NCBI GenBank assembly: GCA_903826205.1
Contig: CAIKDP010000238.1
Span: 1-34,350, forward strand
Direction of reading: 5' to 3'
Source of the DNA: Akkermansiaceae bacterium
GTDB taxonomy: Bacteria; Verrucomicrobiota; Verrucomicrobiia; Verrucomicrobiales; Akkermansiaceae
DNA: 34,350 nucleotides
Part shown: one piece after another, positions 9,727 to 30,209 of the stretch
How positions within the stretch are numbered: position 1 is the stretch's first letter
Layout of the letters: each line of letters opens with the position of its first letter
The notes under the pieces: generated by a model
What the model was told of the DNA's origin: nothing
What the model saw: the letters and a program-made list of their open reading frames with translations, nothing else
Database searches by the model: none
Made by a program: the position numbers and the translations under genes

Positions 9727-10620
9727 TCACCCTTTGAGGGTGGCATCGAGCCAGGCGAGGAGTTTCTTGCGATAGGCGCCTTGGTTGCGCACCAGTGAAT
9801 CACCATGGTGCCCGTCCTTGACTTCAAACATGGTTTTTGGCTCGTGCGCGGTCTGAAACAACAGGCGGCCCTGCGCGACCGGCACCACCTCGTCCTGCGT
9901 GCCGTGCACAATGAGCAGCGGCACCGGCGCGATTTTGCCGACGGCATCCTTGGGCGCCCATTCATCCGTGACGAGACGGGCACCCACCTGGCCGGCGAGG
10001 GTTTTGGCCATTGCCAGGTAGGAGGAAAACGCGGCATCCGTGATCACCGCGCGCAAGCCCTTGACCGGTGACTCGCCCAGCGCCGCGAGGGATTGCGCAC
10101 CACCCAGACTGTGACCATAAGAAACGAGCCGTTCCGTATTCACATCGCCTCGGTTGCCGACATAGTCGAAGGCCGCCCGCACATCCTCCAGCATGCCGCG
10201 CCGGTCCACCGTGCCGCCGGATTTGCCAAACCCGCGGTAATCATACGTGAGGACGTTGTATCCGGCATCGACGAACCACATGACGAAACCGAGGTGATGG
10301 CCCATCGATCCGGTATTGCCATGGGAGAACACCACGGTCGCCTTGGCCTTCTTGCCTTGCACGGGCACGAACCAACCGCTGAGTGCCGTGCCATCCTTGG
10401 ATTTGAATGTCACCTCCTCATAGGTGTGCCCCCAATTTTTCGGCGTCGCGGGCACGTCATGGGTGGGAAAATAAAACAACTGGTTGCCGCCGTTTTTCCC
10501 TAACATGGCCTCGGCCAGCCGGGCAAGTTCCTCATTCGTCCCCTGCGGCTTGGGCGCGGCTGACTGGCCCGGAGCCAGCCCGAGCAGCCCTAACCACACC
10601 ACGAACGCTCGCAAATTCAT
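9727..10620 (-). CDS. Secreted alpha/beta hydrolase
   Basis: A 297-residue serine hydrolase of the alpha/beta fold (Bem46/ABHD13-like) with a signal peptide (MNLRAFVVWLGLLGLAPGQS). The domain shows the oxyanion-hole segment VVFSHGNTGSMGHH, YDYRGFGKSGG, the nucleophile elbow SYGHSLGGAQS (Ser near residue 172), the acid in VHGTQDEVVP (Asp near 242) and the His in VKDGHHGDS (near 271). The catalytic triad therefore appears complete. Substrate is unknown; esterase or peptidase activity is possible. It is convergent with queA, 4 bp away, and its 5' side faces the REP array. The start at 10620 is preferred to one four codons upstream because it begins the signal peptide. Confidence 0.88.
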   Translation of the reverse strand: MNLRAFVVWLGLLGLAPGQSAAPKPQGTNEELARLAEAMLGKNGGNQLFYFPTHDVPATPKNWGHTYEEVTFKSKDGTALSGWFVPVQGKKAKATVVFSHGNTGSMGHHLGFVMWFVDAGYNVLTYDYRGFGKSGGTVDRRGMLEDVRAAFDYVGNRGDVNTERLVSYGHSLGGAQSLAALGESPVKGLRAVITDAAFSSYLAMAKTLAGQVGARLVTDEWAPKDAVGKIAPVPLLIVHGTQDEVVPVAQGRLLFQTAHEPKTMFEVKDGHHGDSLVRNQGAYRKKLLAWLDATLKG

Positions 10621-10689
10621 GCGCGCAATCATACAGATCCCGGCGACCTTGTCGAGTAAATCCCGCCCCGACAGTAAATCCCGCCGCCA

Positions 10690-10947
10690 CTAAGGAGCGA
10701 CGACATTCTTGTCGTCGTCATCTGGCACTAAGGAGCGACGACATTCCTGTCGTCGTCATCTGGCACTAAGGAGCGACGACATTCCTGTCGTCGTCATCTG
10801 GCACTAAGGAGCGACGACATTCCTGTCGTCGTCTGCCGCCACTAAGGAGCGACGACATTCCTGTCGTCGTCATCTGGCACTAAGGAGCGACGACATTCCT
10901 GTCGTCGTCATCTGGCACTAAGGAGCGACGACATTCCTGTCGTCGTC
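10690..10947 (+). repeat. Left REP array: seven direct 38-bp palindromic units
   Basis: Seven copies start at 10690, 10728, 10766, 10804, 10842, 10880 and 10918 with an exact 38-bp period. Each has CTAAGGAGC, then a hairpin GACGAC-ATTCCT-GTCGTC (ATTCTT in the first copy), and most a linker ATCTGGCA; the linker after copy 4 is changed to TGCCGC at equal length. These are REP-type elements: short, palindromic, extragenic, and next to a RAYT gene. Constant linkers rule out a CRISPR array. Confidence 0.93.
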
Positions 10948-10973
10948 TTCTCTTTTGCATCTCCTACGCGAAG

Positions 10974-10999
10974 AAACGACAGGAATGTCGTTGCTCCTC
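10974..10999 (-). repeat. Inverted REP copy closing the left array
   Basis: AAACGACAGGAATGTCG followed by TTGCTCCTC is the reverse orientation of the REP unit, with hairpin ACGACA-GGAA-TGTCGT. It is separated from the direct copies by a 26-base spacer (10948-10973) that recurs, 21 of 26 bases identical, in the right array at 11759-11784. Direct and inverted copies together form the composite unit typical of REP/BIME structures. Confidence 0.88.
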
Positions 11000-11053
11000 A
11001 GACGAATAGAAACTCATTGACGAGCAGAAGCATTTGCTCTATGTCGTTCCCCA

Positions 11054-11656
11054 ATGGCTGATTTTCTCAACCCATCGGGCGAGATCTGGAAGCACGGGCC
11101 GGAGCTTCCGCATTGGCAGCAGGGGGAGGTGATGCAGTTTGTCACCTTCCGACTCGGTGACGCGATGCCCGCCACCAAAGTCCGCCAGTGGCGTGAGGCG
11201 CGCGACATTTGGCGTTCTCATCATCCACAGCCATGGTCAGAGGATGATGAACGGGAATACCACAGGCGCTTCACTTGCAAGCTTGAGTACTGGTTAGATG
11301 AAGGGGCTGGCTCGTGTTTGTTCCGAGTCCCTCACGCCCGCGAGATCATGACGGAAGTGTTAATGCGCTTCCAGGGTGAGAAGGTCGAGCATCACGCGTG
11401 GGTCATTATGCCAAATCACCTGCATTTGCTGTTTTCACCCACAGACCCGATCGAGATGCTGGTCAAGGCATGGAAGGGTGTTTCCGCCCGCAGGCTTGGA
11501 CAGGGCGGCATTTGGCAGAAAAACTATCGCGACACGATGATCCGCGACGGCGGGCATTTCGCCAATGCCGTGCGCTATATCCGCAGGAATCCTGCAAAAC
11601 TCCTGACAGGCACCTTCACCCTGTGGGAGGGCCAGCGCGCTCTGGCCGTGCATTAA
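11054..11656 (+). CDS. REP-associated tyrosine transposase (RAYT), Y1/HUH family
   Basis: A 200-residue single-strand DNA transposase of the Y1_Tnp (IS200-like) fold. The HUH metal-binding motif is in WVIMPNHLHLLFSP (His near 122 and 124), the candidate catalytic tyrosine is in IWQKNYRDTMIRD (Tyr near 158), and the family C-terminal block YIRRNPAKL follows. RAYTs recognise and cleave REP hairpins as a single-copy, domesticated relative of IS200/IS605 enzymes. REP arrays lie on both sides, and its stop codon TAA (11654-11656) is part of the first downstream REP copy. The ATG at 11054 is chosen because an ATG at 11041 meets a stop after six codons; no clear ribosome-binding site is visible. Base composition is slightly lower in GC than the neighbours. 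Confidence 0.92.
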   Translation: MADFLNPSGEIWKHGPELPHWQQGEVMQFVTFRLGDAMPATKVRQWREARDIWRSHHPQPWSEDDEREYHRRFTCKLEYWLDEGAGSCLFRVPHAREIMTEVLMRFQGEKVEHHAWVIMPNHLHLLFSPTDPIEMLVKAWKGVSARRLGQGGIWQKNYRDTMIRDGGHFANAVRYIRRNPAKLLTGTFTLWEGQRALAVH

Positions 11657-11758
11657 GGAGCGACAACATTCTTGTCGTCGTCTTCCGGCACTAAGGAGCG
11701 ACGACATTCTTGTCGTCGTCTTCCGCCAGTAAGGAGCGGGGACATTCTTGTCCTCGTC
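11653..11758 (+). repeat. Right REP array, direct units (three copies, 38-bp period)
   Basis: Copies begin at 11653, 11691 and 11729. The third has GGGGAC-ATTCTT-GTCCTC in place of GACGAC/GTCGTC: both arms changed together so that the stem is kept (C to G opposite G to C, plus a G-T wobble), which is evidence that the hairpin itself is under selection. The first copy supplies the transposase stop codon and has one stem mismatch. Confidence 0.9.
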
Positions 11759-11784
11759 TTCTCATTTGCATCTCCTGTAGGAAG

Positions 11785-11914
11785 AAACGACAGGAATGTC
11801 GTTGCTCCTTAAACGACAGGAATGTCGTTGCTCCTTAAACGACAGGAATGTCGTTGCTCCTTAAACGACAGGAATGTCGTTACTCCTCAAACGACAGGAA
11901 TGGAGTGGCTCCTT
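11785..11914 (-). repeat. Right REP array, inverted units (five copies, 26-bp period)
   Basis: Copies begin at 11785, 11811, 11837, 11863 and 11889, each AAACGACAGGAATGTCG plus TTGCTCCTT, with no linker. The fifth is degenerate (GGAGTGG in the right arm). The array abuts the start of the tonB gene and creates spurious upstream in-frame ATGs for it. Confidence 0.9.
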
Positions 11915-28570: not shown

Positions 28571-28996
28571 TCATGTCCGGGGCTCCAGGTAGCCATGCGC
28601 ACGGGCTTGGTCGCGCGCCGCATCGCTCACGCGGGTGAGCAGTTCGCGGGAGGCCGGACCGAGGCCGGCGGCAAAGGCGGCCGTGGCCGCGTCTTGCGCG
28701 AGGACGGGAATGGCGGCGGCGGTGAAGCAGTGGCTGGTTAGATAGTGGCGGGCTTCCACCGCGGTGGCCAGGCTGAAGAGTCCTGCGTAAAACCAGGGTT
28801 TGGGATCCAAGGTGCGATCCGGTCCGCGGCTCAAGGCGCGGGCAATATCACAGGACGCCAGGAGACGGTCCGGATCGCTTTGTTCCAGATGGGTGAGCCA
28901 AGCGTCGGTCGTCTGGTCCAATCCGCCGCGGACAAACCAGCCGCGGTTGACGCGTCTGGCCCAGGCAATCGGATCGGTGGTGTCGCGGTGTTGCAT
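28571..28996 (-). CDS. Small protein of unknown function between obgE and thioredoxin gene
   Basis: A 141-residue protein, mostly alpha-helical and without signal peptide or membrane segment (MQHRDTTDPIAWARRVNRGW, LEQSDPDRLLASCDIARALS, LDPKPWFYAGLFSLATAVEA). I do not recognise the family. The start at 28996 is the last ATG before the GC-rich region and the repeat triplet; a longer frame upstream is antisense to obgE and not credible. Position in the obgE direction suggests cotranscription across the repeats. Confidence 0.68.
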   Translation of the reverse strand: MQHRDTTDPIAWARRVNRGWFVRGGLDQTTDAWLTHLEQSDPDRLLASCDIARALSRGPDRTLDPKPWFYAGLFSLATAVEARHYLTSHCFTAAAIPVLAQDAATAAFAAGLGPASRELLTRVSDAARDQARAHGYLEPRT

Positions 28997-29050
28997 GCGG
29001 CGCCGGCGGGGTGGGAGTTGGAAGAGGGGGAGTTGTGGCGGAAGAAAAGC

Positions 29051-29152
29051 TCTGCGGTTGGAAGCCGCAGCTACGGGAAGAGGGGGTCTGCGGTTGGAAG
29101 CCGCAGCTACGGGAAGGGGGGATCTGCGGCTGGAAGCCGCAGCTACGGAAGA
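29051..29152. repeat. Three tandem hairpin repeats (36-bp period) downstream of obgE
   Basis: Copies at 29051-29080, 29087-29116 and 29123-29152, each with the hairpin CTGCGG-TTGGAAG-CCGCAG followed by CTACGGGAAG; in the third, the loop reads CTGGAAG and one G is lost. Spacers are six bases of G and A. The array starts 11 bp after the obgE stop (minus strand) and may act as a pause or mRNA-stability element. Confidence 0.85.
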
Positions 29153-29162
29153 GCTACGGTTC

Positions 29163-30209
29163 TTAGCGGCGGTGGCCGACTTCGTTGTCGAGGATTTGGC
29201 GGAGATCATCAAGGCCGGTTTCCAAGTCGGCGGAAATCGGGATGATGTCGACCTTGGGGAAGCGCAGGCGGAATGCATCGAGGTTGGCGGCGGCGTTTTC
29301 CAGGTCCATTTTGTTGGCGACAACTTTCCACGGGAAACGGGCGAGGTCCTCGTCATATTCCTTGATTTCACGGCGCAGAATTTCCAAATCGGACACCGGA
29401 TCCCGGCCATCGACGCCGGCGATGTCGACGACGAAGAGAAGCAGGCGGCAGCGGGTGATGTGGCGGAGGAATTCATGGCCGAGGCCGCGGTTGGCATGGG
29501 CCCCCTCGATGAGCCCGGGAATGTCGGCGACGGTGCAACGGCGGAAGCCGGGAAACTCGACGACTCCGACGGTGGGCTGCAAGGTGGTGAACGGGTAGGA
29601 GGCCACCTTGGGCTTGGCGGCGGAGAGCTTGCCGAGGAGGGTCGACTTGCCGGCATTAGGGAAGCCGACCAAGCCGGCATCGGCGATGCGGCGCAGTTCA
29701 AGGTAGAAGATGCCTTGCTCGCCGGGGGTGCCGAGAGTGTGTTCCGTGGGGGCGCGATTGGTGGGGGTTTTGTAGTTCCAGTTGCCTCTGCCGGGCTCCC
29801 CACCATGGCAGAGGATGAATTGCTGGCCGTTTTCAGTGAGGTCGGCGATGGGCTCCAAGTCGATGCCCTCATCACTTCGCTCGGCAGTCACCGCCTCCGC
29901 CAGGGTGGCGGCATTGCTGCGATAGACGACCGTGCCAGGCGGGACTTTGCCGATGACTTTTTTGCCGGCACGGCCGGTTTTGCGGGTGCCGCCACCGGGC
30001 TTGCCGTCTTCAGCGAGGAGTTTCGGGTCGTAGTGGTAGGCGCGAAGATTGTCCGTTGACGGATCAACGATGAGGATGACATCGCCGCCGCCGCCGCCAT
30101 CACCCCCATCCGGACCGCCGCGAGGGACGAATTTTTCGCGCCGCCAGGAGACGACGCCGTCTCCACCGTCGCCGGCTTTGGCAGAAATTCGGATGTGGTC
30201 GATGAACAT
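29163..30209 (-). CDS. obgE: GTPase ObgE/CgtA
   Basis: A 348-residue essential GTPase associated with the large ribosomal subunit and stress control. The N-terminal glycine-rich Obg domain (AKAGDGGDGVVSWRREKFVP, GGPDGGDGGGGGDVILIVD) is followed by the G domain: G1 GFPNAGKST (182-190), G2 region FTTLQPTVGVVE, G3 DIPGLIEGAH, G4 NKMD and G5 PISADLETG. The C-terminal OCT domain seen in some bacteria is absent, as is common outside Firmicutes. The Obg domain carries an insertion near residues 98-120 (NAATLAEAVTAERSDEGIDL). The start at 30209 gives the standard MFIDHIRISAKAG N-terminus. Confidence 0.96.
   Translation of the reverse strand: MFIDHIRISAKAGDGGDGVVSWRREKFVPRGGPDGGDGGGGGDVILIVDPSTDNLRAYHYDPKLLAEDGKPGGGTRKTGRAGKKVIGKVPPGTVVYRSNAATLAEAVTAERSDEGIDLEPIADLTENGQQFILCHGGEPGRGNWNYKTPTNRAPTEHTLGTPGEQGIFYLELRRIADAGLVGFPNAGKSTLLGKLSAAKPKVASYPFTTLQPTVGVVEFPGFRRCTVADIPGLIEGAHANRGLGHEFLRHITRCRLLLFVVDIAGVDGRDPVSDLEILRREIKEYDEDLARFPWKVVANKMDLENAAANLDAFRLRFPKVDIIPISADLETGLDDLRQILDNEVGHRR

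Follow-up and report, generated by a model that had tools for sequence, protein, structure and literature searches.

A 1.2-kb island at positions 10690-11914 of a contig from an Akkermansiaceae bacterium is very probably a REPtron, that is, a single-copy domesticated Y1 HuH transposase (RAYT/TnpAREP) with its own REP hairpins at both sides; we put the probability of this reading at about 0.82. The DNA analysed, hereafter the window, is a stretch of 34,350 nt belonging to a verrucomicrobial draft genome (5.57 Mb, 469 contigs, 97.66% complete). The island lies between an alpha/beta-hydrolase-like gene (9727-10632, minus strand) and a downstream tonB/exbB/exbD-like set on the plus strand, names that were read from the ORF translations, and it holds one plus-strand ORF of about 200 aa. 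Both flanks of this RAYT gene are made of one and the same block in equal orientation, composed of REP-a (+), a spacer and REP-b (-):

10691..10945, plus strand: left REP-a array, seven units, TAAGGAG foot, 8-bp stem CGACGACA/TGTCGTCG and TTCY loop, 38-bp period
10946..10973, no strand: left spacer from REP-a to REP-b, homologous to the right spacer and within the 85% identical 180-nt block
10974..10999, minus strand: left REP-b, one inverted unit, foot GGAG, stem AACGACA/TGTCGTT
11054..11656, plus strand: RAYT/TnpAREP-type Y1 HuH transposase, ORF of 200 aa
11654..11756, plus strand: right REP-a array, three units, 38-bp period; its TAA doubles as the RAYT stop codon
11757..11784, no strand: right spacer, homologous to the left spacer
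11785..11914, minus strand: right REP-b array, five inverted units, 26-bp period, the last one degenerate

The GGAG feet of the left REP-a array are located at 10694, 10732, 10770, 10808, 10846, 10884 and 10922, in exact steps of 38 bp, and those of the right array follow the same steps at 11657, 11695 and 11733, the third unit having an altered stem. Right REP-b units start at 11785, 11811, 11837, 11863 and 11889, in steps of 26 bp, and the array ends with the degenerate unit (11889-11914). A repeat finder aligned 10840-11019 with 11651-11830, in the same orientation and with 85% identity over 180 nt. The original prediction of a transposase lying between two composite arrays of the same order and orientation was thus borne out, with seven REP-a and one REP-b units on the left and three and five on the right. 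The two spacers are homologous, as had been proposed; the figure of 21/26 identical positions given for them depends on where the borders are drawn, and counting by eye from the hairpin end to REP-b yields 23/28. The inverted REPs expected of a REPtron are present, REP-b (-) preceding the gene and REP-a (+) following it, and the first hairpin on the right has its GGAG foot immediately after the TAA stop codon of the RAYT. Elsewhere in the window, at about 28900-29200, the ORF list contains short repeated segments (GSRSYG type) in ORFs that adjoin an obg-like GTPase gene.

The protein has the features of a RAYT. Its HuH motif is N121-H122-L123-H124, followed by W154 Q155 and by a catalytic-type Y175 within YIRRNP. 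In a 30-row family alignment N121, H122, W154, Q155, Y175, N179 and P180 are invariant and H124 nearly so. Scores against family models are low, 23.6 bits for Pfam Y1_Tnp, barely above the cut-off of 23, and 59.1 bits (E 4.4e-16) for NCBIfam REP_Tyr_transpos NF047646, below the equivalog cut-off of 80. Among solved structures the best match by sequence is PDB 4er8, a TnpAREP with its REP (phmmer, 1e-4), and the E-value reaches 5.8e-9 when the 30-row family profile is used. An AF2 model built from 30 sequences (pLDDT 89.9) also has 4er8 as its top Foldseek match (E 2.7e-6), with a moderate TM-score of 0.46/0.56, followed by ISDra2 and IS200/IS608-type transposases. The protein therefore combines the Y1 HuH core, the W and Y-x-x-x-N-P motifs and the TnpAREP-like fold that define RAYT/TnpAREP, and the REP/RAYT identity proposed for the island is supported by Pfam Y1_Tnp, by the match to 4er8 with both profile and Foldseek, and by the dispersed REPs described below.

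REP-a is spread through the genome. Using the 24-nt motif GGAG-CGACGACA-TTCY-TGTCGTCG at up to three mismatches, we found 130 places in the draft, a number that includes the window units and close stem variants, and 0 places with the reversed pattern as a control in the same genome. A lack of further REP copies elsewhere had been named beforehand as an outcome that would count against a REP/RAYT pair, and it did not occur. Exact copies number 62, eight of them in the window. At 12 of the 15 two-mismatch places the changes alter both sides of one stem pair and keep the pairing, and the 20 one-mismatch places divide equally into 10 that alter one stem side only and 10 that alter the loop (hand counts). 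When folded as single-stranded DNA and compared with 200 dinucleotide shuffles, REP-a gave a z of -4.9 and REP-b of -3.9. The two share the AAGGAG foot and have similar TTCY loops and unlike stems.

In the dispersed copies of REP-a that we read, the partner is a third hairpin, REP-c, rather than REP-b. REP-c (GGAG-CCACCACA-TTCY-TGTGGTGG) occurs at 84 places in the same genome at up to two mismatches, with 0 controls, and also folds as a single-stranded hairpin far better than shuffles. Fetching 30 of the 62 exact REP-a sites yielded 17 distinct arrangements, in 16 of which REP-a forms an inverted pair with REP-c; the remaining one lies at a contig end. Contigs C32 and C132 carry alternating REP-a/REP-c composite arrays of 117 bp or 133/134 bp, that is, regularly spaced REPs of alternating orientation as in a BIME. 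REP-b forms head-to-tail arrays with an exact 26-bp period, of five units at C73:5497-5626 and of three at C271:5910-5987, and the homologue search found no Y1 match on either contig; these arrays bear on the proposal that the same arrays in relatives lacking the transposase would speak against the pairing. A tandem array of another kind, three GGAGTGGGGACATTCCTGTCCCCA hairpins with an exact 36-bp period, is found outside the window at C324:3036-3131. Exact REP-a copies occur on 37 contigs, and on at least 14 of these (hand count) one lies no more than about 350 nt from a contig end, as if arrays had broken the assembly there, and because of these copies near contig ends the draft probably undercounts REP arrays. 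REP copies near contig ends were seen on contigs such as C8, C23, C31, C32, C132, C301, C307, C433 and C469.

Searching the genome for Y1 homologues returned 17 genes, 16 of them above the Pfam cut-off, and the closest relative of the window RAYT is about 50% identical to it. In the loci compared, which covered up to 1.5 kb per side and less at contig ends, REP-a lies beside a Y1 gene in 1 of 17, that of the window RAYT, and REP-c is near none of the 17. On C439 a REP-a copy is located about 2 kb from another Y1 gene. Three further RAYT-like genes have hairpins of their own, on C224 (L003/L115; GGAG foot, stem GGGCGAT), C294 (L011; GTAG, stem CTGCGGC) and C439 (L014; GGAG, stem GCCGGC). Together with the window, these bring the REPtron-like loci of one genome to at least four, which use two foot types.

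Because the partner of REP-a is REP-b in the flanks and REP-c in the dispersed pairs, REP-a is the one element that ties the window RAYT to the latter. Another RAYT, unassembled or undetected in the draft, could mobilise the REP-a/REP-c REPINs, the window RAYT being specific for REP-a/REP-b only. The difference in partners fits this explanation, as do the fragmentation of the assembly and the REP-a copies close to contig ends. However, the window and the dispersed pairs have identical REP-a, and REP-c is absent from all the Y1 loci fetched; we consider it unlikely that a second enzyme is responsible.

The pairing of RAYT genes with flanking hairpins was also found in relatives. RAYT protein matches at E ≤ 1e-5 are present in 119 of 145 genomes (own included). 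Among the best 80 of 302 relatives, named GTDB records put the family in Verrucomicrobiota, with Akkermansiaceae and Verrucomicrobiaceae MAGs, Prosthecobacter, Verrucomicrobium, Chthoniobacter, Opitutus and Geminisphaera, and a few records are labelled Bacteroidales, Chlorobiaceae, Planctomycetia, Kiritimatiellae, Lentisphaerae, Acidobacteria and others. We surveyed the 90 RAYT genes that best match the window protein for hairpins with a stem of at least 7 within 300 nt. The foot is GGAG in 233 of these 280 hairpins, GTAG in 9 and GTGG in 13; in the same loci, 40 of 104 hairpins located farther out or inside the RAYT genes have GGAG. The GGAG finder placed hairpins in 71/90 loci, on both flanks in 60 and on neither in 19. 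The order is exactly (a+ b-) RAYT (a+ b-) in 11 loci, and smaller subsets of it appear in 38/60 others (hand count); the nearest left hairpin is inverted in 43/69 cases and the nearest right one direct in 44/62. Stems vary among loci and mostly match across the two flanks of one locus. As in the window, GGAG comes immediately after the RAYT stop in 19 of the 30 closest loci and overlaps it in three (hand count), and L052, L059 and L071 have a second GGAG slightly downstream, which serves as the foot of the hairpin.

These counts bear on whether the arrays might be plain tandem expansions of ordinary hairpins, such as terminators or regulatory repeats, with a RAYT there by chance. Strict periods and a 26-bp REP-b array without a RAYT are what slippage would leave, and the last REP-a of each block resembles a terminator, with a T-rich tail and a terminator-like score (4 sites in the scan vs 1.2 ± 1.5 in shuffles). 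Yet 71 of the 90 loci have hairpins built to this design next to the RAYT, with locus-specific stems that mostly agree across the two sides, and a chance association is therefore refuted; we give this explanation very little credit. Since it has that tail and score, the last REP-a of the blocks possibly acts as a terminator in addition.

The strictly fixed periods noted for the arrays are real inside each array (38 and 26 bp) but do not extend to relatives, where the tandem arrays of L051-L054 have periods of 26 to 33 bp, fixed within an array and unequal among relatives. REP-a-like places (up to three mismatches) occur in 34 of the 145 genomes, own included, and five or more in just 12. The original prediction had pointed to the same arrays in relatives lacking the transposase as a result that would speak against it; none was seen among the sites read, yet three of those 12 genomes (G059, G078 and G114) have distant RAYTs only, with best E-values of 5e-21, 8e-24 and 3e-33. 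For two REP types of relatives, searched at up to one mismatch, few copies lie elsewhere: GGAGGTTGG... has five copies in G014/G016, all at RAYTs, and one mismatched copy in G104 (3/79 genomes), and GGAGTGGGG..., of the TGGGGAC type, reaches at most three per genome in 13/79 genomes. Private stems fit these pattern-search counts, and general dispersal of the two types does not.

Several points speak against the REPtron reading: the sub-cut-off score for NF047646, the GGAG foot in place of the canonical GT[AG]G, the unlike partners of REP-a in the flanks and in the dispersed pairs, the CT that is at about chance level before REP-c and rare before REP-b (see below), the GGAG at 40 of 104 hairpins farther out or inside the genes, the REP-b arrays without a RAYT, the REP-a copy on C439 at a distance of about 2 kb from a Y1 gene other than the window RAYT, the unpaired changes in half of the one-mismatch REP-a places, the few copies away from RAYTs for the two REP types tested, and the 19 of 90 loci without a GGAG hairpin.

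Foot type differs by RAYT branch among 80 named loci. On a tree of 103 proteins, eight foot classes require nine changes, the minimum being seven; shuffled labels gave a mean of 18.8 and a value as low in 0/200 cases. Of 170 loci, 99 were labelled by the GGAG rule and 20 by hand, with 51 omitted. The eight rows from Verrucomicrobiota that have GTAG/GTGG feet group together on a single branch (98/91), and a ninth GT[AG]G row, L220 (Bacteroidales), falls elsewhere. Other feet seen beside RAYTs are GGAT (L188, L198), GGAA (L110, L179), GGGG (L076, L088) and, in Bacteroidales, GTCG (L213, L217).

Residues Q155, Y158 and T161 of the window protein align with Q95, F98 and H101 of the E. coli enzyme, of which Q95 and H101 are guide-contact residues (PMC6006769; for Q95 also PMC8266576). 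Feet were assigned by a caller that did not see the protein and knows only G[GT]NN feet, leaving uncalled 59/170 loci of a first set and 46/79 of a set of new, non-redundant ones. Results from the 111 first loci called showed Gln155 with G at base 4 in 101/103 and Met155 with non-G in 6/6; in the 33 new loci called these figures were 18/22 and 5/9. A strict code linking residue 155 to base 4 was rejected on the 5/9 for Met155 in the new loci. Base 2 fared better: the new loci had His161 with T in 15/16 and Thr/Arg161 with G in 14/17, and pooling of 142 loci gave 23 T and 3 G for His161, 65 G and 8 T for Arg161, and 43 G and 0 T for Thr161. Columns 168 and 172 equal 161 in information, and column 75 exceeds 155. 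A phylogenetic control on a tree built without the guide segment provided three supported independent pairs, which gave no support (median p 1). Because other columns are as informative and the independent pairs give no support, foot type and guide-contact residues appear to be correlated at the level of clades only, and a causal code is hypothetical. A broader scenario is tentative and rather doubtful: that in the Verrucomicrobiota RAYT radiation the guide foot changed repeatedly, by way of a few residues in W-Q-x-x-Y-x-D-x-x-x-R (155, 158 and 161 in the window), giving the feet GGAG, GTAG, GTGG, GGAT, GGAA, GGGG and GGTG, and that a REPIN-RAYT-REPIN block moved as a unit between sites.

By analogy with characterised TnpAREP, the RAYT would bind the folded single strand through foot, stem and loop, cut near the hairpin by means of its tyrosine and rejoin the ends; REPINs would thereby be copied or moved in trans and arrays would grow beside the RAYT gene. 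The 38-bp and 26-bp arrays would be explained most simply by slippage, or by unequal recombination of direct copies with one another, which RAYT cuts may have triggered. TnpAREP binds REPs as single-stranded DNA and cuts at CT, in one system also at CA, and foot bases 3-4 have been proposed to select the CT (PMC8266576). Since GGAG retains A3G4, a CT cut site would be predicted here as well. CT directly precedes AAGGAG in 8/8 exact REP-a copies of the window and lies within 10 nt before the foot in 27/30 distinct dispersed REP-a contexts; before the foot of REP-c it is found in 12/27, about chance (estimated at about 0.44), and before that of REP-b it is rare (2/7). Cutting at CT beside the GGAG foot is a prediction.

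The flanking genes offered a view of the site without the island. The hydrolase has matches in 45/89 genomes, and 30 loci, own included, were read. In two of 29 relatives (G047 and G035) a tonB-like gene is located within 1.5 kb of the hydrolase, in both cases with no RAYT there. In G047 (L323) the two genes are adjacent, neither a RAYT nor a GGAG hairpin was found between them, and no RAYT match at E ≤ 1e-5 occurs anywhere in that genome. In G035 (L321) the gap is longer; roughly 66 nt past the start of the hydrolase it contains a half REP that retains the foot, the left arm and some of the loop. Either gain or loss of the island would agree with these sites, the change being unpolarised. In the flanks of 49 core loci, read up to 1.5 kb, 62 of 1176 pairs have a common flanking ORF, and the window RAYT shares none with the 48 other loci, seven of which are second fetches of places already counted.

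A still mobile IS200/IS605-like element could account for such data if the REPIN-RAYT-REPIN island transposed or recombined as a whole; the direct REPIN flanks would then mark where a circle, made of one REPIN and the gene, was joined. The empty site in G047, a genome that also has no RAYT match at that threshold, agrees with this, as do the equal hairpin types at both flanks in many relatives and the lack of common flanks around the window RAYT, whereas a nine-locus RAYT group of similar divergence (62-92% RAYT identity) keeps its neighbours. Nevertheless, where an IS200/IS605 element would have several near-identical copies in a genome, this one has a single copy, the next match being the relative at about 50% identity; G035 has the gene pair, no RAYT and half a REP, with gain and loss left unpolarised; the flank comparison extends over at most 1.5 kb and includes the second fetches; and RAYTs have been reported as not changing place (PMC2817692). 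A mobile element is therefore, in our judgement, improbable, and the block movement envisaged in the original prediction is compatible with the empty site and the lack of common flanks, and no more.

As a REPtron, the island has an architecture that is already known. E. coli yafM has BIME-2 elements on both sides, with Y and Z2 units (PMC2817692; PMC6006769); like it, the window has a Y1 HuH gene in single copy that is enclosed by two types of inverted REP, with a REP soon after the stop codon, other REPs scattered over the genome in inverted pairs, and a REP sequence particular to the gene. Unlike yafM-type REPtrons, the window has a GGAG foot instead of GT[AG]G, a verrucomicrobial host, 38-bp and 26-bp arrays of uniform orientation beside the gene, and a dispersed partner that differs from the flank partner. 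REPs just behind the stop codon of gammaproteobacterial RAYTs have been reported, and so has a RAYT flanked left and right by BIMEs (PMC2817692). Evenly spaced tandem REP arrays are known from Pseudomonas fluorescens SBW25, with GI and GIII steps of 72 and 112 bp (PMC3116915); the window resembles them in its regularly spaced tandem REPs and in REPIN clusters beside RAYT genes, and differs in REP sequence and spacing. Since even arrays and BIME-flanked RAYTs were already described (PMC3116915, PMC2817692), fixed periods and spacer do not mark the distinct subtype that had been suggested, which stands as a variant by its GGAG foot and host phylum.

Within the phylum, Opitutus terrae has GTAG/GTGG repeats, and REPtrons were reported in species with GTAG repeats (PMC3733652). 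It shares with the window the phylum and the dispersal of REPs and is set apart by its feet; in our loci, feet of this kind belong for the most part to a distinct RAYT branch. TnpAY1 subclass 2.7 of Quentin et al., known from Cyanobacteria and few other phyla, is defined by [ND]HVH, WQ, YI[LR][NQ]NP and a median length of 213 aa (PMC6006769); by description, the window protein resembles it in its W-Q motif, a similar Y motif, a size of about 200 aa and the flanking hairpins, and differs in NHLH, YIRRNP and the GGAG foot. GGAG as the start of a word is absent from the main text of PMC3733652, PMC6006769, PMC2817692 and PMC8266576, although longer printed sequences would escape such a search and supplements may tabulate it. 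In the literature on RAYT, REP or REPIN and Verrucomicrobia, taken without supplements and subscription papers, PMC3733652 alone was recognised as bearing on REPs in the phylum.

Taken together, the island is a variant of a known architecture by its GGAG foot, by the radiation of its family in the phylum and by the split between flank and dispersed partners, in a group where few gene-and-repeat partnerships of the RAYT kind have been described. For the study of how RAYTs read REPs and how REP families diversify, Verrucomicrobiota offer many natural RAYT-REP pairs; foot and stem vary while the protein stays alignable, so that foot reading may be tested by swapping a few residues and one or two bases. 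These RAYTs also separate two things that are usually joined, the keeping of REPs beside the gene and their spread throughout the genome.
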